A stretch of 22,928 nt of DNA, taken from a virus. The stretch spans positions 1 to 22,928 of IMG/VR virus record IMGVR_UViG_3300042539_001659; one strand, given 5' to 3'. How positions within the stretch are numbered: the first letter of the stretch is position 1; each line of letters begins with the position of its first letter. The notes beneath the pieces are model-generated. The model was not told the DNA's origin. It ran no database searches and was given only the letters and a program-made list of their open reading frames with translations. Positions 4,016 through 18,392 of the stretch are shown piece after piece. Made by a program: the position numbers and the translations under genes.

Positions 4016-6664
4016 TCAATTTCCTTCTCTGTGATCCAAAACCTTGTGGATTGTGTTCATTTTTTCGAGCGCCCGAACCAATATTTTTTCGGAGATCGAC
4101 CCAGGCGCAACGAAGATTTCCGCAGTGACTACGTTTTCTTGACCGAACCTGTCTAACCGGGAAACTGCTTGCTCGTTCTGTGCAGGCACCCAATCGGGTT
4201 CAGCCAAATAGCACCGTGAACAAACCTTCTGCAAACCATCCAAGCCGGTGCCCGCTGCCTGGATATTGCCGATGAACACGCGCACGTTACTCTGATTGAT
4301 AAAATCGTCAACCGCTTTTTGCCTCGCGGCCGGAGATTTCCGCCCATCGACGCGCACCGTACCGAAGCGAGACAATTCATTTTCGAAAATGTCGAGGACT
4401 TCCAAATGCCAGCCGAAGATCACCAGCTTTTCATCGGAGCCCTCAAGAAAATCGCGGGCATAGTCGGCGATCTGCGGCGCAAGAGCAATCCCCATCAATC
4501 GGCGCACCTGCGCGATATGTCCTAGGATTTCGAAATCCTTGGTCGTCTGGATATCGTCAATTGAGATATCCAAAAGCCCCTCAGCGTCGAGCGCCGAGCG
4601 GACATTCCCGCTTTCCTCGCAGCGCACCACAGCGTAGCGGGGCGGCTTCATGAACGTGAGCACGTCCTTTTTCTCGTGCCTCGCCATGACATTCACTCTA
4701 AGCCGATTTTGCAGTTCCGATTCCAGCGACGTACTCTCCAACTTGAACCGCTTGCCTTCGATCGTTTTCAGATCCGCTTGCCGATTGTAACGTTCCTTGA
4801 ATTTTTCCTCACTGGCAAAGTCGATGGCTTCCCAATCGAAAAACCGGAAAAGCACATAGCACTCTGACGGGCGATTGAGCAAAATGGTCCCTGTCAGGGC
4901 TAGGCGCTCTCGGCAATAGTGCGAGATCGCTTTCATCTTGTGATCGCCATGATGATAATCGCCGCGGGAATTGCCGATCACTGCGCGCGTGGTGAGTGCG
5001 TCGATATTTTTCATCTTGTGGGCTTCGTCGCATATCAGCACGTCCCATTCATATTTGGAAATCGCGCGGATGATCGCCGGGTTGCGCGCAGCTTCATAGC
5101 TGATGATCTGATAATGTGCCGTGGGGTGGATGCCGTCCTTGACCTTGAGCATCGTCGAAACCTTGACGCCAGGGATCGTGGACCACGCCTTGATCTGTTC
5201 TGCCCATTGGAGCCTCACCGACGCCGGCACGATCACGAGCACGCGCTGTGCTTCCCTCTCATTGCAGTAGGCGATCGATGTCGGCGTGTTGTGCGTGAGA
5301 GTATATCCTCTAGTGACGAAAAGCCCGCGAGGATCTGCAATCTTGATGCACCGCTGAAATTCCTCTCCATCAGGGACAATCTCAGAAATCGCGAGTTTGA
5401 TGTTTGACGGACGCCATTGGTCGGCTTTACGCACCAAATAAAAGGGGCAGAAATGTGTTTTCACATTCACTTGGTAATCAGTTCCCTTATCGTCTGACCG
5501 TTTGTAGACTCGAACCTTAGCCCATCCTCCAAGAGAGCGGACGAGTTGCGCAATATCTTCTGCAAGTCGTGAAGATTTGGTGTGATAAACGGTTCTGTTT
5601 CGGCTGCAGGAACCGTCAGTGTCCATAAGGCCCGCTAACAAATCCTGCCTTTGGTTTACCGAACCCATGAGATAATTTTCAGGAATGAAACGCTCGGGAC
5701 TTTTTACGTTAAGGCCGAGTGCTGCGATCATGTGATGAAATGCGGCACCTTTAGTGGGGTTGGAGATTATGTATTGCGGACAGTTAGGGTGCCTGTTTTC
5801 GACAAAATGAAATCCATTCGGCAAACACTTTTCCGCATTCTGCACTATTTCAATGTCCTGATCGGGGCACGAAAGCGCAACCTTTGTTCCTGTCAATGCA
5901 CCGTCACCGATCAGTGCACCAAGCAAATAGGGGTGTATGTCGAAATTTTTTTGCGCGTACTGAATCGGTTGCACCAGTGGGACATAAAAACGTGCGATTT
6001 GGCGAGGTACTCCGTTGCGCGTTCCTCCGCCAACCGTCAGTCCCCAATCCATGATTTGCTGTGTAGTCAACACTTCCGTCTTGAAACCGCAGCCTCCGCG
6101 CCGTTCGACTTCCCATAAATGTTCCGCATCACATCGAACGTAGCGACCATCCGAAAAGACGACTTTCCAAACTCGGCTCTTTTGAGGGCGATGCACTGCC
6201 TCAATTTGAACAGGTTGCCCATTATGCCCATAAACCCAAGCACCTGCATGCAAGTCTGAATTCTTGCGCCAGCCGAAGGGTGTCAGGATTGGCTCGGACA
6301 AAGGCAATCGTTTCCCGAGCCCCGGCTGATCGCCATTGATCCCGCCGCCCCTCTCCAGCAAGAAATCCAGTGTGGCTTTCTGATAATCCCACAGTTCCTT
6401 GCCTGGCGGCAGTCGGCGGGTTCCCTTGCCATCGAGCGCGCGGGATTTCTCGATCTGTTGGCGGTATGGGCCGAGCGTCGGCAGGCTCTCGTCGGCGATA
6501 TCAGCGAGCGAATACGGGTTAAGTGAGAAAAGCACAGCTTCGTTGCGACTGCTCGCACTCGTCGAGAACGTAAGCCCGCGATAGGCCATCAGGTTCGCAA
6601 TTTCCTTGCGATCCGAAATCGGTACGTGAAGGATGAAATTTTTACCGTTTTCGGAAACCTTCAC
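4016..6664 (-). CDS. SNF2-family DEAH-box helicase interrupted by an intein (882 aa precursor)
   Basis: A superfamily 2 ATPase of the SNF2/SMARCAL1-like type, common in phage replication operons. Before splicing, Walker A is split: GDQPGLGK (residues 111-118), then the intein (119-459), then TPTS, so splicing restores GLGKT. Motif II is DEAH at 546-549, motif III is LTGTILLNRP (590-599; most relatives have GTP where this has GTI), and motif VI is QAVSRLDRFGQ (832-842). The N-terminal 90 residues resemble the accessory domain before the helicase core. The mature protein would be about 541 aa. The start is a GTG overlapping the upstream EFDL stop (GTGA). Likely roles are fork remodelling or strand annealing on DNA. 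Confidence 0.88.
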   Translation of the reverse strand: MKVSENGKNFILHVPISDRKEIANLMAYRGLTFSTSASSRNEAVLFSLNPYSLADIADESLPTLGPYRQQIEKSRALDGKGTRRLPPGKELWDYQKATLDFLLERGGGINGDQPGLGKRLPLSEPILTPFGWRKNSDLHAGAWVYGHNGQPVQIEAVHRPQKSRVWKVVFSDGRYVRCDAEHLWEVERRGGCGFKTEVLTTQQIMDWGLTVGGGTRNGVPRQIARFYVPLVQPIQYAQKNFDIHPYLLGALIGDGALTGTKVALSCPDQDIEIVQNAEKCLPNGFHFVENRHPNCPQYIISNPTKGAAFHHMIAALGLNVKSPERFIPENYLMGSVNQRQDLLAGLMDTDGSCSRNRTVYHTKSSRLAEDIAQLVRSLGGWAKVRVYKRSDDKGTDYQVNVKTHFCPFYLVRKADQWRPSNIKLAISEIVPDGEEFQRCIKIADPRGLFVTRGYTLTHNTPTSIAYCNEREAQRVLVIVPASVRLQWAEQIKAWSTIPGVKVSTMLKVKDGIHPTAHYQIISYEAARNPAIIRAISKYEWDVLICDEAHKMKNIDALTTRAVIGNSRGDYHHGDHKMKAISHYCRERLALTGTILLNRPSECYVLFRFFDWEAIDFASEEKFKERYNRQADLKTIEGKRFKLESTSLESELQNRLRVNVMARHEKKDVLTFMKPPRYAVVRCEESGNVRSALDAEGLLDISIDDIQTTKDFEILGHIAQVRRLMGIALAPQIADYARDFLEGSDEKLVIFGWHLEVLDIFENELSRFGTVRVDGRKSPAARQKAVDDFINQSNVRVFIGNIQAAGTGLDGLQKVCSRCYLAEPDWVPAQNEQAVSRLDRFGQENVVTAEIFVAPGSISEKILVRALEKMNTIHKVLDHREGN
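5288..6310 (-). mobile_element. Class 3-like intein with LAGLIDADG homing endonuclease
   Basis: A 341-residue in-frame insertion between Lys118 and Thr460 of the helicase. Its first residue is Arg (codon CGA), not Cys or Ser, so a canonical class 1 N-terminal acyl shift is impossible. It carries the class 3 signature instead: Trp66 in block B (DAEHLWEV), Cys321 in block F (RCIKIADP) and Thr339 in block G, before the terminal His340-Asn341. The +1 residue is Thr. Two LAGLIDADG motifs are present, LLGALIGDGA (about 129-138) and LLAGLMDTDG (about 224-233), so the homing endonuclease looks intact. Bases inside look AT-richer than in the flanks, consistent with separate origin. Confidence 0.9.
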
Positions 6665-6870
6665 AAATCAAACTCCCTCGCAGGCTTCTCGTCCATGTAG
6701 GGCAGCGGGCCGATCCAGCCCGCCACGGTTCCGGCGACAGGCTCCTTGATATTCGAGAGCCAGCCGGTGCCGCCAGCAAGCCAAAAGCGAACCACAGTCG
6801 GCACTTCGAGGCCGTGCATATAGCAGACGTAATGTCCGGTTTCGCGCGGGGTGCCTGTCTGGATTTTCAC
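6661..6870 (-). CDS. Hypothetical protein ending in EFDL (69 aa)
   Basis: The start is a GTG with GGAG eight bases upstream; that GGAG lies inside the end of the preceding gene. The protein has the pattern [13 protein letters not shown], then [11 protein letters not shown], then GWIGPLP. This recalls small phage DUF551-like proteins with conserved Trp and Gly positions, but I am not certain of the family. It ends AREFDL (GAG TTT GAT TTG TGA), and its TGA overlaps the GTG of the helicase gene. One of nine E-[YF]-D-L endings in the window. Confidence 0.65.
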
Positions 6871-7769
6871 AGATCATACTCCAGCTTCATCGCAGATTTC
6901 CTTGACGACTTCGGCGAAGGCTTGCGCGGTTTTCGCGTCGAGCGCATTTCCGTAGGCGCGCAGGATCCCCACTCGACCGGCAATCCCATGAGCCAGCGGG
7001 AATGTGAGGGATTCAACGGGCCTCCAGCTTGGCTCTCCGGCAGGATTTCGACACAAAAGCCAATCTGCATCGTCGAGCGATCCAGCTTCCCGCGAATTGC
7101 GAACGGTCCCTGCACTGCTGATATCGTCGCTCGGCTGGAGTCCGTGTTGCCTCCCGGATTGTTCCCGTTCTGCACTGGCGTCCCTACTTGAGGAGTCGGC
7201 CAGCCCGACAAATTCACTGCCGATTGCAAGTTCAATCCGCCTTCCCTGCCCGATGTTCCCACTCCGGTCGAGTTGCTGGTCGTCGTTGTCGGCCAGCCTG
7301 ACAACCAGGCTGCTCGCCCCAAGAGCGCATTGATCGGCACGTTCAAGCATTCCTGCCCATCCTTCCAATCCCTCGTGGTGGTGGTGGGCCAGCCCGATAG
7401 CTGCGCTTGCATCGCTACGTCCGAGATCGTGTCGCCCATCTGTATCCCGCGAGCCTGCGCCGTCTGTTTGCGCTCCATGAATTTCTCGGCTGTCCCGTTC
7501 GCCGGATTGCTCACTGGAGTCCCCCAACCCGATAGCACAAACTCCATCGGAGATTGCGACAAAGTATAGGCGCTGACGCAGGTGCGCTTGGCCGAACCCC
7601 GCAGCGCACAGATCGCTCGCCCCGAAGGCGTAACCCGCTCCTTCCATGTCAGTCGATACAAGATCGAGCCATTGCAATCCGTCCTTGCTCGCAACTTGCT
7701 CTCCAACGATTGTTGAAGGGCGGCACTGGTCAATGAGCTCGAACCAGGTAGGCCACATGTGACGTTCAT
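6867..7769 (-). CDS. Overprinted protein in the +1 frame of the methyltransferase gene (300 aa)
   Basis: This frame stays open through the last three quarters of the methyltransferase gene and looks like a real protein family. It has [15 protein letters not shown] and [11 protein letters not shown] near the N-terminus, repeated '[14 protein letters not shown]' units, a NTDSSR segment, and [16 protein letters not shown] near the C-terminus. I recall phage proteins with these features, often annotated as methyltransferases. The start chosen, MNVTCG, has AGGGA seven bases upstream; a longer start at 7844 lacks a clear site. The 'GWPT' repeats are the same DNA as 'GLAD' repeats in the other frame. 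It ends KLEYDL, matching the ending shared by other genes here. Function is unknown; translation is inferred. Confidence 0.55.
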
Positions 7770-8049
7770 CAGCAAATCCCTTTTGTTTTCCTGCGGCACT
7801 GAACGGTTGACAGGGGCAAGAGCCTGTCCAGATCGGTCGATCATCAGACCAACCAGCCTGCCTCAGAGCATAGGACCAAACCCCAATCCCGGCGAAAAAA
7901 TGACATTGCGTGAATTGGTGCAGTTCCCACGCTTCCACGTCCTGAATTTTTCGCTCGTCGACGATCCCCGGCGCGATGTGACCGGCTGCAATCAAATTGC
8001 GCAGCCATTGGGCAGCAAATGGATCAGGCTCGTTATACCATGCGGTCAC
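6874..8049 (-). CDS. C5-cytosine DNA methyltransferase (391 aa)
   Basis: Transfers a methyl group from S-adenosylmethionine to cytosine C5 in DNA, probably protecting phage DNA from host restriction. Visible motifs: I, FFAGIG (51-56); IV, SCPCQPF with catalytic Cys80; VI, GEQVA (116-120), where Gln replaces the usual Asn of [15 protein letters not shown] (158-165); and X, YGNAL near residue 375. The region between VIII and X, where the target recognition domain lies, is full of 'GLADxx' segments and polar low-complexity sequence. The GTG start overlaps the stop of the preceding gene (GTGA). From codon 94 onward the DNA is also open in the +1 frame (see the overlapping gene), so its base composition is doubly constrained. 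Confidence 0.85.
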
Positions 8050-8195
8050 AGATCATACTCCGGTTCGGGGTATTTCCGCCATTCATATTTGTAAGATTCT
8101 GCGGAAGGGCACAATCTGATTGCGGCCACGACAGGTGAACGAAATTTGGATGCGTCGATCCAATCGCCGCCGTCAAAACGAATTTCTAATTTCAT
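8046..8195 (-). CDS. Hypothetical small protein ending in EYDL (49 aa)
   Basis: A short gene filling the space between the MerR-like gene and the methyltransferase. It reads MKLEIRFDGGDWIDAS, then a middle part, then KYPEPEYDL and TGA. An in-frame GTG two codons upstream (8201) overlaps the previous stop and could be the true start, giving 51 aa. Its stop overlaps the GTG of the methyltransferase. The 16 bases at its end (8046-8061) are identical to those at 6867-6882, where the overprinted frame ends. Function is unknown. Confidence 0.65.
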   Translation of the reverse strand: MKLEIRFDGGDWIDASKFRSPVVAAIRLCPSAESYKYEWRKYPEPEYDL

Positions 8196-8197
8196 TT

Positions 8198-8533
8198 TCA
8201 CAGATCGTACTCGATTGCAGTGCTTGCGGCTGGCGGCTTAGGCAAATTTTCACCCAGGCGCACGGCGGCGCGCATCTGATCATCAAGCCGGATCATGATC
8301 GCTTCATACACTTCTGGACCCCACTCGATCAGCATCAATTGGATCTGCTCGATGCTCCAACCGCCGAATTGCGCCGCAGCGATGATCTTGGCCTTATCGA
8401 TCTGTTCGGGAGTGAAGCGGCGCGTACCTTTCTCGGATCGCTCGACCTCGCCGAGCAAACCCTTTTCTTCCCAAAACCGAACCCCGCGCGGCGACGTGCA
8501 GCCCGCTCGCGCCATTTCTTCAACGGTGTGCAT
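8198..8533 (-). CDS. MerR-type winged-helix protein ending in EYDL (111 aa)
   Basis: The N-terminal 70 residues match a MerR DNA-binding domain: TVEEMARAG (helix-turn-helix), SPRGVRFWEEKGLL (second helix and wing), RRFTPEQIDK, and a helix leading to the C-terminal part. No effector-binding cysteines are visible. The ATG has GGGAG four bases upstream and lies inside the end of the preceding gene. It is probably a phage transcription regulator or excisionase-like architectural protein. The C-terminus, STAIEYDL, carries the shared ending (GAG TAC GAT CTG TGA). Confidence 0.7.
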   Translation of the reverse strand: MHTVEEMARAGCTSPRGVRFWEEKGLLGEVERSEKGTRRFTPEQIDKAKIIAAAQFGGWSIEQIQLMLIEWGPEVYEAIMIRLDDQMRAAVRLGENLPKPPAASTAIEYDL

Positions 8534-13135: not shown

Positions 13136-13906
13136 TTAATCCTTCACGGGATTATCAAAGCCATGAATGCGACATTGCAATTCAAGTAGGTCAAGGATCG
13201 CAAATGTCTCTTCGCCAAGCGGCGTTCCTGCACGTGTCTTTGTCCAGTGCGAGCGTGCTTCCTCGAATGAGAAATAGCGGCACCCTGCGATGATGCGGGG
13301 ACCTTCCGGCGTGGAGGTGATGGTGAAGGTGTAATTGTCGCTGCGGACGGCAGTGAGGTTGACCTTGCAGACCCGTGCATTGCCGTAGACCCGTGCATTG
13401 CCGTAGACCCGTGCATCGCCGGAAACCCGTGCATCGCCGGAAACCCGTGCATTGCCGGAAACCCGTGCATTGCCGTAGACCCGTGCATCGCCGGAAACCC
13501 GTGCAAAGCCGTAGACCTGCGCATTGTCGTAGACCTGTACATTGCTGGAGACCCATGCATTGCCGTAGACCCATGCATTGCCGTAGACCCGTGCATTGCT
13601 GTAGACCCACGCATCGCCGGAGACCAGCGCATCGCCGTGGACCCGTGCATTGTCGAAGACCCGTGCATCGCCGGAAACCCATGCATTGCCCGAGACCCGT
13701 GCATTGCCAGAGACCTGTGCATTGCTGTAGACCCACGCATTGCCGCAGACTGAAAGATTGTCTTCTTTCTCGACCCACCCGCCAAGCATTCCGGCAACAA
13801 GGTCGAGTGCCGCAATGTCAGCCGTGGCACGGATGCGGTGAAGGGTGCGACCAAGCAATTGCTTGGTTTCGCCGGTCGCTTCAAATTTCGCATTCTTGAA
13901 AGTCAT
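13136..13906 (-). CDS. Hexapeptide-repeat (left-handed beta-helix) phage protein (256 aa)
   Basis: After an N-terminal domain of about 80 residues, 21 perfect-length hexapeptides follow (DNA 13370-13747), mostly of the form Y/S-G-N/D-A-R/W-V. This is the pattern of a left-handed parallel beta-helix, as in bacterial hexapeptide acyltransferases, and of phage proteins with 'GNARVYG' repeats of unknown function. The C-terminal 70 residues form a separate domain. The ATG (MTFKNAKF) is preceded by AGGAGAAC; an upstream GTG overlapping the previous stop has no such site. The repeats keep several other frames open, which are not genes. No catalytic His is evident in the repeats except one HGDALV unit. 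Confidence 0.8.
   Translation of the reverse strand: MTFKNAKFEATGETKQLLGRTLHRIRATADIAALDLVAGMLGGWVEKEDNLSVCGNAWVYSNAQVSGNARVSGNAWVSGDARVFDNARVHGDALVSGDAWVYSNARVYGNAWVYGNAWVSSNVQVYDNAQVYGFARVSGDARVYGNARVSGNARVSGDARVSGDARVYGNARVYGNARVCKVNLTAVRSDNYTFTITSTPEGPRIIAGCRYFSFEEARSHWTKTRAGTPLGEETFAILDLLELQCRIHGFDNPVKD
13370..13747 (-). repeat. 21 tandem 18-bp units coding for hexapeptides
   Basis: Each unit is close to TACGGCAATGCACGGGTC on the minus strand, with changes mostly at codon 1 (Tyr, Ser, Phe, His), codon 3 (Asn or Asp) and codon 5 (Arg, Trp, Gln, Leu). All units are exactly 18 bp, so the array can gain or lose units without a frameshift. There are no unique spacers, so it is not a CRISPR array. 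Confidence 0.9.
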
Positions 13907-13941
13907 AACACTGTTCTCCTGTTTATAGATATTACGTAGCG

Positions 13942-14517
13942 TCACAAATCCAGAGACGCAAGTGAATTCGGGCGAGCGTACAAGGTCACATTGCGACCTG
14001 CGCGCTTTTCATAGGTAAACCAATCGGCGAAGCTTTCCAGCTTGCGCACACGTGATAGAGCGCGCGGAATTCGTGGTGCGTCAAATTCCCTGAGATTGGT
14101 CGGCGAGGCCAAGAGCAACCGACATGCAATCCAAGCATGGCTTACGGACTCGGCTGGCAAAATAGACTTGATCCAGGTTGCGAGCATATCGACTGCGACA
14201 GGATCGCCGCGCGCTGCATCACTGATCGCCGCGACAATCTCGATAGGCGCAGTTTCGTGTGTCGCATCGCCGATCGCGTCTAGCTGCTCTTGAGCCCTGC
14301 CAGCGTAGCGACCCAGGGACAGTATCAAGGCCGGGTTATCAGCGAGCGCGGACAATTCCAGAGCAGACAAAGGCGAGCGGTTGGTAAGTGTGCCGATAAT
14401 CCCGACACAAGCCGCATCCGTTACATCAGCGACGCGCAAGACGCCTGCCTTGAGCATTAGCTTGGCCTTTTTGTGAGATACCCGGAATTTCTCGCAGAAT
14501 TCTAAAAGCGTCATCAT
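13942..14517 (-). CDS. Hypothetical protein with N-terminal helix-turn-helix-like segment (191 aa)
   Basis: The first 35 residues (LLEFCEKFRVSHKKAKLMLKAGVL) look like a winged helix or excisionase-like DNA-binding segment. The rest is helical (SALELSALADNPALILSL, VAVDMLATWIKSIL), and a C-terminal part is rich in Arg. Tandem ATG codons follow AAGGA. The product ends SLASLDL, a weaker relative of the EYDL ending (GAT TTG TGA is kept). Function is unknown. Confidence 0.65.
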   Translation of the reverse strand: MMTLLEFCEKFRVSHKKAKLMLKAGVLRVADVTDAACVGIIGTLTNRSPLSALELSALADNPALILSLGRYAGRAQEQLDAIGDATHETAPIEIVAAISDAARGDPVAVDMLATWIKSILPAESVSHAWIACRLLLASPTNLREFDAPRIPRALSRVRKLESFADWFTYEKRAGRNVTLYARPNSLASLDL

Positions 14518-17587: not shown

Positions 17588-17925
17588 GCGACAAACCCAC
17601 TGGCACGGATCTGATGCAGCCGACGCGCGACCTCGCGAAGCTGCCGATGATCTCGGCCGAGCAGTATCAGCACGTGGGCCGCTATGCCGGCGCTCTCGTC
17701 ATGTCCTGCTTTGCACAGATCGGCGGCTTGGAGCGCATGGCCTCGTGGGCTGATAGCAACCCGACCGACTTCTACACGAAGCTGTTCCCCAAGATGATCT
17801 CTCGCAGCACACAGGTTGACGTGAGCGGGACGCTGACGATCGATGACGCGATCTCCCGGCTGGAGCGGCAGAGCGACACCGTCGATGCGACCTTCGAGGA
17901 AATCCCTCAAGAATATGATTTGTGA
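17584..17925 (+). CDS. Candidate terminase small subunit ending in EYDL (113 aa)
   Basis: The middle segment, CFAQIGGLERMASWADSNP followed by DFYTKLFPKM, matches a pattern in phage proteins encoded just before the large terminase, where 'WA..N...FY....KL.P' recurs. Some are annotated as small terminase, most as hypothetical. No clear DNA-binding domain is visible in the N-terminus, so the call is tentative. The C-terminus, IPQEYDL, is encoded GAA TAT GAT TTG TGA. Its end forms the left copy of the 41-bp direct repeat. Confidence 0.5.
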   Translation: MSDKPTGTDLMQPTRDLAKLPMISAEQYQHVGRYAGALVMSCFAQIGGLERMASWADSNPTDFYTKLFPKMISRSTQVDVSGTLTIDDAISRLERQSDTVDATFEEIPQEYDL

Positions 17926-17951: not shown

Positions 17952-18130
17952 TCGTCGAGAAAATTAAAGAATTGCTTTTGAAGGAAGATGGGTTTTTCCA
18001 TGTTACAGACGCGCGAGGACATAAGACGATAGTGATTGAAGGACCATTTTCGTCACAAGATAAACTGGAGAGACATACAGGTAAAACCAAAAATTCGGTT
18101 ACTCGTATTGTAACCGAATACGATTTGTGA
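17948..18130 (+). CDS. Hypothetical cassette-like protein ending in EYDL (60 aa)
   Basis: Reads MIVEKIKELLLKEDGFFHV, then KTIVIEGPFSS and a basic segment, RHTGKTKNSVTRIV, before TEYDL. The gene is visibly AT-richer than its neighbours. It is bracketed exactly by the two 41-bp repeats, so that removing one repeat plus the gene would leave a perfect junction between the flanking genes. This suggests recent gain by homologous recombination or exchange. Function is unknown. Confidence 0.65.
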   Translation: MIVEKIKELLLKEDGFFHVTDARGHKTIVIEGPFSSQDKLERHTGKTKNSVTRIVTEYDL

Positions 18131-18156: not shown

Positions 18157-18392
18157 CCTACGAACGAATGCACGGACGCGAGGAAGGTATTGCCGAGCGC
18201 CTGAAAATGTGGCGACGTGCTCTTGCCACCGACAAGAGTTATCCGTGGCTCGGCACCGGCATCTGCGACGACCTCGTAACTGCCGCTCGAATGCTCGGCG
18301 CTGATGTGTCCGAATTCGACCAACACAATGACGAACCGACCTTGCCTGAGATTGTGCCTGCCGAGCCTGTAGTAATGGAGTTTGACCTGTGA
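18153..18392 (+). CDS. Hypothetical protein ending in EFDL (79 aa)
   Basis: The N-terminal half is helical (GIAERLKMWRRALATDKSY, CDDLVTAARMLGADVSEF) and the C-terminal half is acidic and Pro-rich (EPTLPEIVPAEPVVMEFDL). AGGAG in the direct repeat precedes the ATG. Its TGA overlaps the GTG of the MazG-like gene, and GGAG within the EFDL codons sits eight bases before that GTG. Function is unknown. Confidence 0.65.
   Translation: MTYERMHGREEGIAERLKMWRRALATDKSYPWLGTGICDDLVTAARMLGADVSEFDQHNDEPTLPEIVPAEPVVMEFDL

Follow-up and report, generated by a model that had tools for sequence, protein, structure and literature searches.

A class 3 intein with arginine at position 1 in the Walker A motif of a phage SNF2-type helicase, predicted to be splicing-competent

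We analysed a stretch of viral DNA of 22,928 bases (a virus record, referred to below as the window), and found that its SNF2-type helicase gene is interrupted by an endonuclease-bearing class 3 intein, the first residue of which is Arg. We consider this intein to be splicing-competent with a probability of roughly 0.92. This assessment rests on the exact position of the insert relative to empty homologous sites, on the presence of the complete set of class 3 residues, on the predicted fold, and on the signatures of purifying selection in three diverged phages.

The helicase precursor gene (4016..6664, on the minus strand, as are all parts of this gene given below) has 882 codons with no internal stop, and its GTG start overlaps the stop codon of the upstream gene. 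Pfam matches above the cut-off were obtained for SNF2-rel_dom (PF00176, E 1.3e-16), Helicase_C (PF00271, E 1.2e-6), LAGLIDADG_3 and Hom_end. The first two domains place the protein in the SNF2 family of helicases, and they are interrupted by the segment that matches the last two. The precursor also matches phrog_62, DNA helicase (E 5.1e-71). The neighbouring genes encode an exonuclease-like DUF2800 protein, a Gp2.5-like ssDNA-binding protein, a primase-polymerase/AAA protein, a DNA methyltransferase and the terminase large subunit, and this gene neighbourhood is consistent with a block for phage replication and recombination. The annotated relatives of the terminase large subunit are all distant (33.7% identity for the top-ranked record). 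A YdcK-like beta-solenoid protein built of short repeat units (PF18836) is encoded at 13136-13945 (minus strand). It should be noted that phrog_19299, named "terminase large subunit", matches the helicase precursor essentially across the intein (113-460). Two relatives, with host types assigned by eye, are misannotated via their inteins as well: a P-loop ATPase of Bacteroides phage BS-TP3 (L004) as "terminase large subunit", and a RecB-like nuclease of Mycobacterium phage StubbySaigey (L010) as "HNH endonuclease".

The intein (5288..6310) comprises 341 aa, R1 to N341, and lies within Walker A, between GLGK and T, as proposed earlier in a sequence-only reading of the window. The N-extein (6311..6664, 118 aa) ends in GDQPGLGK, the first half of Walker A, and the C-extein (4016..5287, 423 aa) contains the remaining SNF2 ATPase and the Helicase_C domain. 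A scan of IMG/VR with the C-extein yielded 36 homologous loci, which served as the basis for counting empty and occupied sites. GLGK-T is uninterrupted in 31 of them (L045 included), and the C-extein of the window shares about 90% identity with its nearest empty homologues. The insert is present in two loci, L015 and L043 (the same contig as L002), both of which have Arg1. The remaining three sites were unscorable: two loci (L029 and L047) are truncated at a contig end, and the third (L027) lacks an intein but has an altered site. Because close homologues have an empty site, the insert can be delimited exactly as R1 to N341, without gain or loss of a residue, and a wrong intein boundary is thereby ruled out. 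Comparison with homologues lacking the insertion, which the sequence-only reading had recommended, thus fixes the boundary and confirms that Arg1 is real, leaving the intein without the usual N-terminal nucleophile; the predicted spliced product (882 - 341 = 541 aa) has the length given in that reading.

Two of the intein-free sites deserve a separate description. In L027 (about 4980-5010), PGK-stop-SSA stands at the insertion site instead of PGLGKTP, with equal length; this one sequence may reflect faulty assembly, or else a scar left by repair at a homing site. In L045 (3294-5846), the Walker site of the homologous SNF2 gene is empty, and another intein, of class 1 type (Cys1 at its start, HN followed by Cys at its end), lies further downstream, between NRPSE and CYVLF.

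Arg1, Trp66, Cys321 and Thr339 are all found where they had been claimed. Position 1 is occupied by Arg (codon CGA, 6308..6310), and not by Cys, Ser or Thr. Alignment with relatives identifies His64 (block B:10, 6119..6121) and the WCT triplet, that is, Trp66 (block B:12, 6113..6115), Cys321 (block F:4 nucleophile, 5348..5350) and Thr339 (block G:5). The latter is followed by His340 and the C-terminal Asn341 (block G, 5288..5296 for the three residues), and then by Thr+1 (5285..5287), which is defined by the empty homologues and is both the C-extein nucleophile and the Walker A threonine. His64, Trp66, Cys321, Thr339, His340 and Asn341 are invariant in an alignment with ten relatives. Both LAGLIDADG motifs are kept, as the sequence-only reading had stated: LLGALIGDG with Asp136 (5900..5926) and LLAGLMDTDG with Asp230 and Asp232 (5612..5641), both of them supported by the alignment and by Pfam (Hom_end and LAGLIDADG_3 for the first motif). 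The intein matched 761 of 50,697 phage records at E<=1e-3, and this similarity is far beyond chance.

An AlphaFold2 model of the intein (m5104bd6dcc36) has a mean pLDDT of 95.8 and a pTM of 0.93, with no residue below 70 (the model alignment had 46 rows, i.e., the window and 45 of 159 usable loci). The top Foldseek matches of the model are inteins with homing endonucleases. In VIA, comparison of the whole model with PI-SceI gave Z 27.5 at 3.1 Å over 321 residues, and comparison with 6bs8, the class 3 DnaB intein of M. smegmatis, gave Z 20.7 at 1.5 Å over 123 residues. We are confident that the predicted fold consists of a HINT domain, similar to the splicing domains of solved class 3 inteins, and a LAGLIDADG endonuclease; the model bears on the fold and gives no side-chain test.

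The absence of Cys, Ser or Thr at position 1 could also be expected for a class 1 intein that has recently lost Cys1 and merely resembles class 3. We rejected this explanation as extremely improbable, since Trp B:12, Cys F:4 and Thr G:5 co-occur and the intein groups only with rows that have Cys F:4. Specifically, in a quick tree of 172 rows (the window, 169 relatives collected by similarity and two class 1 inteins, both on long branches), the window intein falls within starred sets of 3, 6 and 12 rows, all of which have Cys F:4. The sequence-only reading had asked for such a phylogeny and had named clustering with class 1 as an outcome that would speak against it; the nearest relatives all have the block F cysteine. 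In addition, Arg1 is encoded by three different codons in three phages (CGA, CGT and CGG in the window, L015 and L002), which argues against a fresh mutation, retention of a single residue at about 80% identity being weak evidence alone.

To place Arg1 among related inteins, we used a census of relatives, in which 169 of 172 were kept (L099, L109 and L171 were dropped, because the match was too short or the start was cut off). The census loci are the best 80 per scan; as they were gathered by similarity to the window intein and are not a random sample, the counts below cannot give class-wide frequencies. Among the 169 matches listed, block F:4 is Cys in all 169, B:12 is Trp in 166, and the C-terminal THN is found in 162; the +1 residue is Thr in 132, Ser in 35 and Cys in 2. 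By contrast with these positions, position 1 of the class 3-type relatives varies freely in the aligned sequences and is mostly Ala: among the same 169 matches listed, there are 106 cases of Ala, 13 of Gly, 9 of Glu, 8 of Ser, 7 of Pro, 5 of Leu, 4 each of Arg, Met, Asp and Cys, 2 of Gln, and 1 each of Phe, His and Val. The four relatives with Arg1 are L015, L002, L009 (Dulem virus 38) and L061. Among the 139 listed matches with GK before the insert and Ser or Thr after it, Arg1 is found in three. The variability of position 1, together with the recurrence of Arg1, is therefore what would be expected if this position is not catalytic.

It should be noted that Cys1 occurs together with the class 3 residues Trp B:12 and Cys F:4 in four of the 169 matches listed (L098, L174, L187 and L190). 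Ser1, as judged by the aligned start, occurs with the same two residues in eight (L010, L051, L078, L085, L117, L127, L139 and L145); L010 does not adjoin GK, and its extein suggests a start that could lie one residue further on.

On the intein tree, Arg1 requires three changes among 170 class 3-type inteins. The Arg1 group of the window and L061 belong to separate starred sets, and L009 belongs to none (quick tree). These comparisons indicate that Arg1 is an uncommon natural variant, and not the recent inactivating change that the sequence-only reading had allowed for, because it is common to three diverged phages and recurs elsewhere.

For the analysis of selection, we compared the window, L015 and L002, the inteins of which are 79-84% identical at the protein level. 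As dS is saturated in several comparisons, where omega is meaningless, pN and pS were used instead. For the entire intein, which has no stop or frameshift in any of the three phages, pS is 0.72-0.83 and pN is 0.09-0.13. The endonuclease part has pS of 0.73-0.88 and pN of 0.11-0.16 (pN/pS about 0.14-0.20), the splicing part has pN/pS of about 0.10-0.18, and the C-extein has pS of 0.62-0.69 and pN of about 0.07-0.08. The low pN compared to the high pS is indicative of purifying selection on both the splicing and the endonuclease domains, and a pseudogene intein was considered and rejected.

The same data bear on another explanation, namely that this class 3-type intein no longer splices, or mainly cleaves, due to Arg1, and that the phage either can do without the helicase or obtains it from the host or a coinfecting phage. 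Arg1 is indeed rare (4 of the 169 matches listed), and a dead class 3 intein, Arth_1007, has been described (PMC3196547). However, the exteins are intact and constrained in three diverged phages, as is the splicing domain; His B:10 and Cys F:4, which were lost in Arth_1007, are both present in the window intein; and Arg1 recurs in the distant inteins L009 and L061, which have full WCT sets. Thus, we regard loss of splicing as very unlikely, and the class 3 intein of this phage helicase, a candidate for splicing, is very probably active.

The intein is patchily present among related phages. A carefully built tree with 34 C-exteins (five of the 36 homologues, L027, L029, L043, L046 and L047, were left out, L043 being the same contig as L002) places the window in a group of seven (support 94/96, unstarred), three with the intein and four without it. 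Presence of the intein requires three changes on this tree, and a single clade of the three carriers is not rejected (AU p 0.198). Synonymous divergence of the intein is as high as that of the exteins, which speaks against very recent exchange among the three carriers. Any homing among the window, L015 and L002 is not evidently recent.

Several known inteins resemble that of the window. The Snf2 intein of Deinococcus radiodurans, reported as an experimentally studied class 3 intein that splices (PMC3196547, PMC11219805), is likewise found, by its literature description, in an SNF2/Rad54-type helicase, but has a bacterial host. The inteins of Brevundimonas phage Domovoi (ON529855, L003) and Mesorhizobium phage Cp1R7A-A1 (MT188704, L012) share the class 3 residues, the SNF2-type helicase and the site between DQPGLGK and T. 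However, the former is only about 42% identical over the intein and has Met at position 1, whereas the latter has Gly at position 1 and endonuclease motifs that look eroded by eye. The closest cases are L015 (IMG/VR 3300037462_000205, 84% identical) and L002/L043 (IMG/VR 3300025018_000051, 79% identical), which share the intein, the site and Arg1, but belong to other phages of one family, with synonymous sites near saturation. The DnaB-1 inteins of M. smegmatis and M. chimaera (6bs8, 6rix) have the same splicing-domain fold (Z about 20) and class 3 residues; unlike the window intein, they are mini-inteins without an endonuclease, hosted by DnaB. Inteins are also listed for a HepA-related helicase of mycobacteriophages, the relevant part of that source giving no intein class (PMC5050341).

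The sequence-only reading had presented the SNF2-type host with an intact LAGLIDADG domain as a useful addition to class 3, and neither half of this was borne out. SNF2-rel_dom is matched in 34 of 38 proteins scanned (37 relatives and the window), and SNF2-type hosts account for at least 33 of the 139 listed matches with the GK junction, a lower bound because a Walker-type pattern picked only 37 of the 139 for the domain scan; together with the D. radiodurans case, this led us to reject SNF2 as a new host type. An endonuclease is usual, LAGLIDADG motifs being reported in 82.5% of 1,701 class 3 inteins (PMC7891396). A literature text search combining intein, Snf2 and Walker A found no related paper.

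In class 3 chemistry, as described in PMC4031507 and PMC3196547, the N-scissile bond is attacked by Cys F:4, after which the +1 residue takes over the N-extein; cyclisation of Asn and ligation of the exteins complete the reaction. By analogy, Cys321 would attack the Lys-Arg1 peptide bond directly, producing a branched thioester; the N-extein would then be transferred to Thr+1, Asn341 would cyclise, and the exteins would be joined as GLGK-T, restoring Walker A. Arg1 would be tolerated because it takes no part as a nucleophile, although slower or partial splicing is possible, given that Arg1 is uncommon (4 of the 169 matches listed). Before splicing, the helicase can soundly be expected to be inactive, and the LAGLIDADG domain would enable homing into uninterrupted GLGK-T alleles of related phages. 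Alternatively, splicing might be conditional, with activation of the helicase delayed either by Cys321, if this residue responds to redox state or zinc, or by the Lys-Arg1 junction. In M. smegmatis, the class 3 intein of DnaB is reported to sense oxidative stress (PMC6195587), and the insertion site is the ATP-binding loop; against this stands the view that endonuclease-bearing inteins splice constitutively (PMC7891396), and we consider conditional splicing unlikely. Somewhat more doubtful still is a specific variant, in which position 1, being catalytically free, repeatedly acquires bulky charged side chains such as that of Arg, and Arg1 after the Walker lysine tunes a strained N-junction, so that the helicase is turned on only when Cys321 is reduced. 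If true, a phage helicase would be under intein control.

We also observed a gene-end signature, GARTWYGAYYTGTGA, which reads E-[YF]-D-L-stop, with the last codon and the stop overlapping a start codon. In the window, copies are located at 489-503, 6661-6675, 6867-6881, 8046-8060 and 8198-8212 on the minus strand, and at 17911-17925, 18116-18130 and 18378-18392 on the plus strand. The exact signature has 70 matches in 340 kb of 37 family loci (L002 and L013-L048), versus none in 1.03 Mb of 160 other loci. Among 2,940 stops that follow at least 60 open codons in the family loci, the commonest C-termini are EYDL (71) and EFDL (43), and the wider pattern [DE][YFWL]DL is found at 124 of these 2,940 gene ends, compared to 1 of 6,081 in the other loci; another listing, filtered somewhat differently, again gave 124 proteins, in 24 sequence clusters. 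The signature could be either a shared C-terminal peptide or a nucleotide element of translational coupling. Third codon positions vary freely, which points to the peptide; the last codon and stop together usually read ATGA or GTGA and thereby overlap a start codon, and the methyltransferase gene of the window stops inside one copy in another frame, both of which point to the nucleotide element. In the window and in L002, the DNA methyltransferase gene is overlapped in a different frame by an open frame of 325 codons that ends in EYDL (6867-7844 of the window, minus strand; L002, 1464-2441). A literature text search for EYDL, phage and C-terminal found no paper.

The intein with Arg1 alone changes no view of intein biology, and the family-wide gene-end signature may merit more attention than the intein. 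Nevertheless, three phages with the Arg1 intein, set against some thirty close relatives in which the site is empty, provide a clean natural test of the view that class 3 inteins need no defined first residue. Precursors with Arg1 could also aid engineering, because how tolerant the N-junction is makes a difference to class 3 tools.
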